In this document: piece by piece, positions 29,207 to 45,253 of the stretch | Layout: each line of letters begins with the position of its first letter | Position numbering within the stretch: the stretch's first letter is position 1 | Made by a program: the position numbers and the translations under genes | From: Agelas oroides | Taxonomy: Eukaryota > Porifera > Demospongiae > Agelasida > Agelasidae | Assembly (NCBI GenBank): GCA_949130485.1 | Contig: OX422198.1 | Coordinates: 5,894,417 to 5,958,416, forward strand | Length of the DNA: 64,000 nucleotides | Direction: 5' to 3' | Notes under the pieces: model-generated | The model's input: the letters and a program-made list of their open reading frames with translations, nothing else | What the model was told of the DNA's origin: nothing | Databases searched by the model: none

Positions 29207-32200
29207 ATGCCCGGTACTATTTGCATCGCTGCTCAAGGCCACGATCCTCTCAAACCCAACGTGAGTTAAAATGCATGCACTTGTGACTTACTAGAGTCTC
29301 ATTCCCAGATCATCCCACTATCAAAACGGAAGTCTGGGAATGACACCACCAACCCATTCTTGACACCATTTTTTAACACCAAATTTTGCTCTCAAATATT
29401 GCAGGACAAAGTGGGAACCAATTATTGTAAACTGATGCCTGTGGCTAAATGCCAAAAGAATTTGGTAATTATCATCAGCGCCCAAAACAGAATCTGCACA
29501 ATATCTTTAACTTTCCAGCAGCAAATGGCTTCCATGTATTTGGTTAGTTGACCTTTGTATCATCCCAGGAAGCACTATATCGCTGTCAAAGACACCACCC
29601 TTTCAACTGTGAACTCTTAGAGGACCTAGCAATCAGCAGTCACATTTAGCAATAACTAGCAGTACAAACTGCCATGAAGATTCTTTTGCATATCACATTT
29701 TCCAAACCTGCCTGCTGTTCAGGTGTGCAGGCATAACAATAGTCTTGTGCCCAGCCCACACACGTCTCCCGGCGAGAAACGGTCTGGTAAACAAAGTCAA
29801 ATTTCTTGGCTTGTTCCCCAAAAGTGGTAAGGACCAATGAGATTGCGAGATCGGTAATTATGACATAGTATTTTCCTTACAATTTAACCGTAAAATTTTT
29901 AAAATCTACTCAAGTATCTGTACCTTTTTTGAGCAGGTTTGGGTGTAAAATGTGACACTGTCGCAAAAGTGTGTGCAAGCCCAAGAAATTTGACTTGGTT
30001 CACCAGACCGTTTCTCCTTGTGAGAGGGTGGGGTCTAGGGACGAGACTAACATAACAGTACAGACTGCCATCGTGTCCATAGTTAAGAAAGCTAAAAACC
30101 AGTAGGAGAAGAGAAATGACACACCGGTACAGCTCTCTGTGACCGGTTGAACCAGCAACTGGTTATACATGGTCACATGCTTAACATAGACTGTACAGAA
30201 TTACACATGTATGCAATATTATTGTAGGAAAAGGAAGTAGATTGTCAATATCTTCCCATATTTGAATGCACAACTGCGGTTTCAGTCTCGTCAAGGGTAT
30301 CGGAGGAAAACAATTTGACCGGTGTGCCTTGTTTGTTTTATGAAATTTGCTGATTTGGTACTCGACATGAGTTGTAGATGGACGTTGGTAGTATTCACAA
30401 ATATTTGTGTGGTTTTAGGGGAACACCATGGACAGTTCATGTCTAATATGTCCATCTTGTACTCATGTTGTAGTACCCATTGAGTGAGTTTCACACAAAA
30501 CAAATCAGTGCTTGTTAGTATAACCTAGTTTCTATGGCAACCTGGTATTGTGTGTATTGTTTTGTGTGGCTACTACACAGCTTTTGAACTCACTTGCAGT
30601 CACTAAACTTGCAGCTGTCTGCCTCAGTTGCAGCTGATGCTGTGAAGTCATTCCTCTTGGTAGCCATCACCATGGTAACAGTTTCTGTACTCAATACTAA
30701 AACACACAGGGAGGGTCTAAGGAGTTTGTTATTCAGTTAACGAGGTCAGGGACGATGGCTGCCAAGTGTGTTTTTTTCCGAATACAGAGCAAACCTTGAG
30801 CCTCATTCCCAGGCGCAAATAGTGTGTACCAGGCGCTCTTTCTCCTCCCCCTTCTCCGCACCTGGGAATGAGGCTAGATAGTCAGTAAACAACAATCATG
30901 GCCGATAAAATCAAAATTACCTGACCCTAATGTAGGGATGTGCGGATTATTTTTGGAGTGGTGCAGCATAGCACAGTGGATAGATTTTTGGAGCACAATC
31001 AGCCCTACCCCAACCCTAACCCCATGTCTTCTTTTCCTCTCTCCAGGAGCTTGCTTTCGAGAAAGGAGATGTGCTCACGATTGTCAGTGAATTGACAGAG
31101 GTAAGTATAGTTTGTGTACACACAAGTTATGTAGAGTGGACTTATGCCGTGGGTAAATTTTTCGCCAATTTCACTAATTGGTAATTATTATTGCATTTGA
31201 TGTGCATCTCTCAGATTTCACTGATATTTATCTCCGGTTACGAGTAAGCTTCAAACACGAGATAAAACCAGCAGGCAGTGCAATAAAACATCCAAGAATC
31301 ATTTGTTAGTTCTGAGAGCCATAAATTGGTGGACAGAGTTTTGGCAACCACACTGATTGGTTACAAATAGATCTGGTAAAACTTTGCTGCTAGAAAATGG
31401 TGGGGGCAAGCCTGAGCAAGCAGCTACTATGGCTACACATGAATAGACTAAGCTTCACACTGAAATCATGAGCTGAATCATTAGCATTTATGAGTGCCGT
31501 TTATGCACGACCCTTACCTGAAGCGATCTCAACTTTGCTATAACACTACACTACCAGCTTTGGTTCCTGGGGAAATATTTCTTCTTGATGGTAGTTAGAG
31601 GAAGGAATGTCTAGAGAAAGGGTGTGCCATGTTACACAGAGGTAGGTGGCTTGCCAACAAACAAAGGATGTCTGCTGGTGAAGCAGGAAGGGGCTACACG
31701 GGAACAGTAGTTTGTTTGTGTGGTTGGAGTGATGGAGTAAAGCATCACATGAGAGCATAGGGAACTAAAGGTTCGGTAACAACAAGGTGCTGTTGCTCCT
31801 ACTACATGAGGTTACCGTGTGATATTAGCCCCTTTACCTCTGTTGCAAGGTCATCAAGTGATATTAACCCTTTACCTCTGCTTGTGAGGTTATGGTGATA
31901 TTAACCCTTTACCTCTGCTTGTGAGGTTATGGTGATATTAACCCTTTACCTCTGCTTGTGAGGTTATGGTGATATTAACCCTTTAATTTTGTTTGTTTTG
32001 CCTGTGATATTAATTAACCCTCCTGTTCATGATAGAGCAGCTACAAAATGTACAACCCAGCCTTTTATTCATGATTGGGCCAATCTTAAAGATGAAAGGC
32101 CTGGCTATGCCTACAAGCCACATAGAGAATTGCTTCCCCTCCTTCCTACAAACTGCTACATATCCTTCACTCCCCCCCCTTTTATCTCTCCCTCCCTCCC

Positions 32201-44500: not shown

Positions 44501-45253
44501 CCCTCCCAACCCTGACGTGCTGGTTCGGGGTAGTACCAGAGGAGAAGTCGACAAAAACATCAACTTCAGATGAAATTGGTAATTACACTTAAAATTAATT
44601 TCCGGTTACTGGTCCACATGTGGATCAATTTCACCAAGTTGCGTTGACTTGTGTAAACCCTCTACTTAGTATGGGGTATACCCCTCACAGAATATGTACC
44701 CAGCATTTCTAGATACACCTGCCACAGGATATGGCCAACTGTGATTTGTTTGTGGTTAGCCTACACTGGTTCTGAGCCCTTCTTATGCTCTCTTCCTTTG
44801 TCCTTCCCTTCTCCTTCCCTCTTCTTCCTCCTTCCCTCTTCTTCCTCCTTCCCTCTTCCCCTTTCCTTCCCTCTTCCTCCTTCCCTTTTCTTCCTCTTCC
44901 CCTTTCCTTCCTCCTCTCACCCCCCCCCCCCCCCCCCACACACACACACATACACATTTGCAGATTATGTCACAGACAAAGACATTGAAGTAGTATCCAA
45001 GGACCTTGGTACCTCGTGGGTTGAACTGGGACAAACGCTAGGTTTCAGTGGTCCAGAACTCGAAAGCTTCTCCCTCCGTGTGAAGGCTGTGCACAGTAAG
45101 GCTGGCGAGAGGATGCTGAGAGAATGGCAGACGCTTCACAGACACAATGCCACCTTCTTTGCCCTCCTGGGAGCGCTAGAAATCATCCAGAGACGAGACA
45201 TTGCCGATAGCTTGGTGGCTGCAAGAATGGCGGGAGAAGGCATTGCAGTGTGA
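41549..45253 (+). CDS. Roc-COR-Death domain protein; probably the C-terminal part of the CSK-like kinase fusion
   Basis: Exons: 41549-41617, 41999-44578 (one 2.6-kb exon), 44964-45253; stop TGA. Roc is a Ras-like GTPase always followed by COR. G1 is GPQGSGKTS (499-507 in fusion numbering), G3 DIPG (737), and G4 THSD (841), the form usual in Roco proteins. COR follows (about 890-1290), with RWLRCVRRFQGLAGKGV and the dimer-side LYFRFRRGFIPSGLFSRFVVR. The last exon is a Death domain (LGTSWVELGQTLGFSGPELE, ERMLREWQTL, ALEIIQRRDIADSL), as in DAPK1, which has the same Roc-COR-Death order. G1 and G3 are about 230 residues apart, far more than usual; the insert carries PPPLPRRR (580-587) and basic Ser-rich text. 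The first exon needs one base from an upstream exon, and the kinase exon ending at 39896 supplies it (G from g|ga). A separate gene starting at ATG 41596 or 42013 remains possible. Confidence 0.88.
44775..44955. repeat. CT-rich tract and (CA)n before the Death-domain exon
   Basis: Pyrimidine repeats (cttccctcttcttcctc), a C homopolymer near 44921-44937 and a short CA run precede the acceptor at 44962-44963. Confidence 0.9.

Follow-up and report, generated by a model that had tools for sequence, protein, structure and literature searches.

Does the divergent tyrosine kinase gene next to CSK in the sponge Agelas oroides end with its kinase domain, or is it spliced onward into a Roc-COR-Death module? 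The stretch analysed (the window) comprises 64,000 nucleotides (nt) of contig OX422198.1 (assembly GCA_949130485.1, positions 5,894,417 to 5,958,416, forward strand), and coordinates below are those of the window. We consider it highly probable that 29207–45253 is one gene encoding a sponge Roco protein with a degenerate SH3 domain, an SH2 domain, a CSK-like kinase, a linker, Roc, COR, and Death. From the sequence comparisons described below, the fusion is very likely real. The original prediction, that a CSK-type tyrosine kinase is spliced in frame to Roc-COR-Death, was supported by the JGI protein P0064, which holds both parts in one open frame.

The probable kinase-to-Roc junction

The gene was rebuilt base by base as a 16-exon chain, and the exon sum of 4266 nt in frame was recomputed as predicted, giving 1421 amino acids (aa) and a single, terminal stop; GT-AG borders were found at all 15 introns. 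Thirteen kinase exons (29207 to 39896) are followed by a 69-nt exon, a 2580-nt exon (41999–44578), and a final exon (44964–45253). The last kinase exon (39734–39896) breaks off after the first base of a codon, at the donor TTG/GTGAGC (phase 1), and exons 41549–41617, 41999–44578, and 44964–45253 carry the frame on to a TGA, open throughout; coordinates and phase were thus as first described. Two further claims held: the stop of the downstream CSK (51886–59397) falls at the place corresponding to the donor of the fused kinase exon, and the frame past donor 39896 runs into a 155-bp repeat resembling a miniature inverted-repeat transposable element (MITE). This MITE-like repeat (39992–40146, within intron 13) had 30 near-full-length dispersed copies with 76–84% identity among the best 40 of 2226 candidates. 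The same kinase-linker intron contains another dispersed repeat at 40363–40571 and, at 40806–40872, a repeat with further copies in the window.

The evidence that carries the join is P0064, which comprises 1160 aa, represents 11 sequences, and comes from another organism, probably a sponge. In one open frame, the C-terminal 80 residues of a CSK-type kinase lead through about 25 aa of linker into Roc-COR-Death, and P0064 gave a single match to the window chain (360–1421 to 46–1160, 32% identity, 533 bits). Pfam recognized kinase positions 176–256 of 258, COR-A, and Death, and the 80-residue kinase piece matched the window kinase best (116 bits), with koala CSK near (110 bits). After 45 unrelated residues, P0064 enters KFSVKSDVWSF, with which the window exon at 39259 also begins. 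P0064 is probably a spliced cDNA or RNA with one intron retained at its front, as the similarity of P0065–P0067, which are 50–51% identical to it over 77–78%, stops at either end of the Roc-COR exon in the manner of unspliced genomic frames, and that of P0064 continues. For 31 of 74 Roc-COR relatives, the frame reaches upstream of the acceptor point of Roc, and in 14 of the 31 no methionine lies between that point and the P-loop; therefore, the genes of these 14 need an upstream coding exon.

Within the window, candidate exons of the 2102-bp gap were scored with a splice matrix built from 24 other introns of the window. The 69-nt linker exon 41549–41617 (GPTHPPHSSSLPSRDMVNTIPD) scored 19.5 bits and led the 152 open candidates of compatible phase, ahead of a runner-up at 12.6, and it also ranked first when phase was ignored; 300 gap sequences simulated with a first-order Markov model reached 18.1 bits at most, and none equaled the exon. 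The exon is symmetric (phase 1-1), and donor 39896 fits acceptor 41999 directly and in frame, so the fusion is independent of the 69-nt exon. Judged from the window alone, the join is plausible and unproved.

The locus could also be read as two adjacent genes, a CSK-like kinase that ends in a brief tail beyond the donor, followed by a Roc-COR-Death gene starting at ATG 41596 (MVNTIPDVEELV) within exon 41549–41617. This ATG has G at −3 and +4, an ATTAAA (41013) and a TATAAA (41158) are present, phases match by chance in one case of three, and the reading frame beyond the donor is open into the MITE-like repeat. However, P0064 carries both parts in one frame, the kinase tail would finish inside a dispersed repeat, and the assembly contains no second close copy of the kinase or Death exons. 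For the last point, the assembly (259 Mb, 141 contigs) was searched, and matches of at least 80% identity to the fused kinase, to the SH3-SH2 portion, and to the Death exon were the window's own exons only; the single-copy statement is limited to these exons. No AATAAA occurs between 39897 and 42000, where the ATTAAA at 41013 is the only one, but this has little weight, since both AATAAA and ATTAAA are also absent from the 1500 bases that follow the stop of this gene itself; the missing AATAAA was therefore dropped as proof of fusion. The two-gene reading is weakened, and we regard it as unlikely.

A single locus may also yield products beside the full fusion, by skipping of the 69-nt exon, which is possible in frame, or as kinase-only or Roc-only forms from retained introns or inner promoters. 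P0116, a JGI protein with a spliced SH2-kinase, stops just past the part matching exon 39259–39345, and P0064 starts in an apparent intron; both ends could equally reflect incomplete contigs or unspliced RNA. Such products, which are compatible with the fusion, are a tentative possibility.

Several observations weigh against a single fused gene. The gene model and join are predicted from genomic sequence and sequence comparison, donor 39896 scores 4.35 bits (25th percentile of the 24 other window donors), and phase agreement by itself has the one-in-three chance given above. The linker similarity between the window and P0064 was not significant (172 of 2000 shuffles as good; 74 of 2000 for the part upstream of the ATG), and linker conservation was rejected as proof of fusion on this test. 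P0064 is missing the SH3, SH2, and N-lobe, and the 45 residues at its front resemble a retained intron or an alternative start. Its Roc reaches 13.5 bits against a Pfam cut-off of 27, with the P-loop intact, and its G4 motif is THME versus THSD in the window. P0116 ends with PYPSIFDVL, one exon before the kinase end and short of the junction, perhaps because it is truncated; it neither backs nor contradicts the join. Geodia P0046 and similar relatives contain Roc-COR-Death alone, though these are exon-wise or truncated predictions.

P0064 was also the sole fused protein returned by the protein searches, which scored 7992, 7993, and 7980 candidates sharing the most words; the proposed check for proteins matching both the kinase and Roc/COR/Death was thus answered by one protein among the candidates scored. 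The kinase search listed 120 of 5844 under length limits that leave out any fused chain, and a divergent fusion from Amphimedon or Ephydatia may therefore have been overlooked. No compared sequence covers SH3 through Death in one piece. Two scans with the Roc-COR profile for DNA of other sponges, one of viral contigs and one of genome contigs, gave no relative. P0115 and P0189, from elsewhere, carry several kinase domains per frame and were rejected as fusion relatives, as they are multi-kinase frames without Roc.

Ancestry of the kinase and the neighboring CSK

The nearest solved structure for residues 1–443 is CSK 1k9a (384.6 bits, versus 290.2 for ABL1). An ordinary sponge CSK of 12 exons and 479 aa (51886–59397) adjoins the fused gene 6.6 kb downstream, and the two have seven or eight intron positions in common in the same phase (read by eye). 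A 24-row unrooted tree with no Src outgroup placed the window kinase and P0116 (69% identity over 68%) together (100/100), on a branch 1.23 changes per column long; the remaining 22 CSK and MATK rows lay outside this pair, and the neighbor CSK grouped with the Ephydatia and Amphimedon CSKs. By these comparisons, the kinase is probably a separate, divergent CSK-like branch rather than an ordinary CSK. The original description was refined on this point: the kinase is CSK-like and divergent, and not a recent tandem copy of CSK.

The adjacency to CSK and the common intron positions would suit a recent tandem CSK copy placed before a Roco gene, making the fusion a young accident in this species. 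However, the tree places the window kinase with P0116 and the neighbor CSK with those of other sponges, and P0064 holds the fusion at 32% identity; the fusion is therefore old. On the unrooted tree and P0064, the recent-accident reading was rejected and is highly improbable.

The CSK-family features of the chain are the SH3-SH2-kinase order, an activation segment without tyrosine, the introns common with the neighboring CSK, and CSKs as best relatives. Unlike CSK, which stops after the kinase, the window chain runs about 980 residues further, its SH3 has lost aromatic residues, and its kinase lies on a separate branch of the unrooted tree. A third, partial CSK copy at 61022–63980, cut by the window end, is 85–98% identical in pieces to 53149–55894. 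It looks like a decaying tandem copy, because single-base differences (by eye) would shift its frame.

Domains of the encoded chain and comparison with Roco proteins

In order, Pfam recognized SH3, SH2, tyrosine kinase, Roc, COR-A, and Death in the window chain, whose 16 exons all lie on the forward strand in open frame. Exon 1 (29207–29260) provides the start codon and the N-terminal part of the degenerate SH3, with residue 3 onward aligning to residue 11 onward of CSK 1k9a, and exon 2 (31047–31100) continues the SH3, which barely passes (SH3_2, residues 6–59, 22.3 bits against a cut-off of 21.8). Exon 3 (32205–32425) holds the SH3 end and the first half of the SH2 with its FLLR arginine retained, exon 4 (34493–34598) holds SH2 (residues 71–147, 70.5 bits), and exon 5 (35720–35819) holds the SH2 end and the SH2-kinase linker. 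The SH3 has lost aromatic residues that are retained by four aligned CSKs, so ordinary PxxP binding is doubtful.

The tyrosine kinase (283.7 bits) has its N-lobe in exon 6 (36527–36701) and continues through exons 7 (37153–37243), 8 (38250–38323, with the SRGRSV segment by CSK alignment), and 9 (38434–38484). Exon 10 (38636–38684) shares a codon with exon 9 and contains the catalytic loop HRDLAARN, exon 11 (38775–38876) contains DFG and the activation segment, and the C-lobe follows in exon 12 (39259–39345) and the kinase end in exon 13 (39734–39896). The catalytic motifs are intact. The SRGRSV segment of CSK has a role in docking Src kinases, and the segment kept here may still dock them.

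After the linker exon 14, exon 15 (41999–44578) encodes Roc, a long Ser/Pro-rich insert, and COR, assigned by Pfam and a structure model of the relative P0005, and exon 16 (44964–45253) encodes Death (residues 1332–1409, 40.7 bits) and the stop. Roc barely passes (27.1 bits against 27), COR-A scores 49.6 bits (cut-off 35.3), and COR-B, at 17.3 bits, lies under its cut-off of 27; Roc and COR in tandem, which define a Roco protein, are thus present by Pfam. The putative GTP-binding motifs of Roc are GPQGSGKT, DIPG, and THSD; with loose patterns and some relatives being fragments, G1 was found in 65 and G4 in all 74 of the Roc-COR relatives. The predicted structure of P0005 matches the Roc-COR of LRRK1/2 and prokaryotic Roco proteins, and the long Roc insert, modeled at low confidence, is probably disordered. 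This insert (window 42330–42680) contains PPLPRRR, RRWRSQSF, and RRHYSDS, whose loose patterns occur in 61, 51, and 35 of the 74 relatives (some of them fragments), which suggests SH3-ligand and basophilic-kinase or 14-3-3 sites. An intramolecular clamp of SH3 on PPLP was considered, the PPLP-type pattern being present in 61 of 74 relatives, yet not claimed because the SH3 is degenerate.

LRRK kinases belong to the TKL group of protein kinases. The following comparisons with published proteins refer to excerpts of the cited papers. A review from 2019 recognizes three groups of Roco proteins, with DAPK1 as the only one having a kinase before Roc-COR (PMC6337361). DAPK1 has 1430 residues, a kinase before Roc-COR, no leucine-rich repeats, and Death near its end (PMC6337361, PMC12408332). 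The window chain likewise has an N-terminal kinase, a C-terminal Death domain, and no leucine-rich repeats, and kinase, COR-A, and Death matches are present in P0064 as well. Unlike DAPK1, which joins a calmodulin-dependent Ser/Thr kinase to ankyrin repeats, the window chain has an SH3-SH2-tyrosine kinase and a linker about 22 residues long, and Pfam gave no ankyrin family in it at E up to 1. LRRK1 and LRRK2, the second group, have leucine-rich repeats and a C-terminal kinase (PMC6337361), whereas the window chain has its tyrosine kinase in front, a Death domain, and neither leucine-rich repeats nor a post-COR kinase. Placozoans, which are early animals, have Roco proteins that carry Death or CARD domains (PMC4104024); the window chain shares their combination of Roc-COR with a death-fold domain, and the excerpted text of that paper mentions no tyrosine kinase for them. 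No tyrosine kinase joined to Roc-COR appeared in the titles or abstract openings among the matches listed, in a search with subscription papers and preprints outside its scope. As predicted from sequence and set against these excerpts, the kinase-Roc-COR-Death chain is a Roco architecture outside the three published groups, new and DAPK1-like in order.

Across the assembly, 132 COR-A matches were found, and the best 150 of 950 kinase candidates were taken. Among the matches scored, COR-A and kinase lay within 20 kb of each other at three places: this locus (three fused-kinase exons 3.6–4.6 kb upstream of COR-A and one CSK exon 14.9 kb downstream), C14, and C8, where the pair sits on opposite strands. 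C14:8470833–8471282 with its flanks encodes LRR-Roc-COR-kinase in one open frame of 1737 codons, apparently an LRRK-type gene with few introns. Matches to the Roco-type COR-A are greatly expanded in number here; they cluster on C1, C3, and C20, and many of them lie in single frames of about 720–780 codons. Arrays of kinase-like frames, many of 500–700 codons, occur at C8:4.67–5.94 Mb, C15:1.23–1.49 Mb, and C10:7.50–7.55 Mb.

Proposed mechanism and meaning for the Roco family

By analogy with CSK and DAPK1, the SH2 would bring the protein to phosphotyrosine sites, and nucleotide binding and dimerization of Roc-COR would set the activity of the preceding kinase. The Death domain would recruit the protein to, or nucleate, a death-fold assembly. 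The kinase, with its motifs intact and the SRGRSV segment kept, would phosphorylate the tails of Src-family kinases or some other tyrosine substrate. Together, these steps would shut off Src signaling locally, depending on GTP and a death scaffold. The function, including the originally suggested link of Src control to GTPase and Death signaling, is inferred by analogy. In excerpts of two papers, GTP on Roc alters the activity of the DAPK1 kinase in front of it (PMC6337361, PMC12408332). Against such control, another reports that disrupting nucleotide binding leaves DAPK1 kinase activity undiminished (PMC4104024), and Roc control over the kinase may therefore take either direction.

We propose, at an evenly balanced level of confidence, that the gene represents a fourth Roco class, old within sponges, in which an SH2-bearing, CSK-like tyrosine kinase became linked to Roc-COR-Death in an event independent of DAPK1 and in which the GTPase and death scaffold gate a Src-off kinase. 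Src is reported to phosphorylate vertebrate DAPK1 (excerpts of PMC12408332), and the fusion would therefore be a natural experiment on the coupling of Src control and Death-domain kinases. It would also provide a further test of Roc-COR control over a kinase, an open question for LRRK2 (abstract of PMC11052575). If the proposal is true, animals built a kinase-Roc-COR-Death chain twice, from different kinase groups, and the tyrosine kinase with SH2 would tie phosphotyrosine signaling, a GTPase switch, and death-fold assembly together in a single chain in an early-branching animal lineage.
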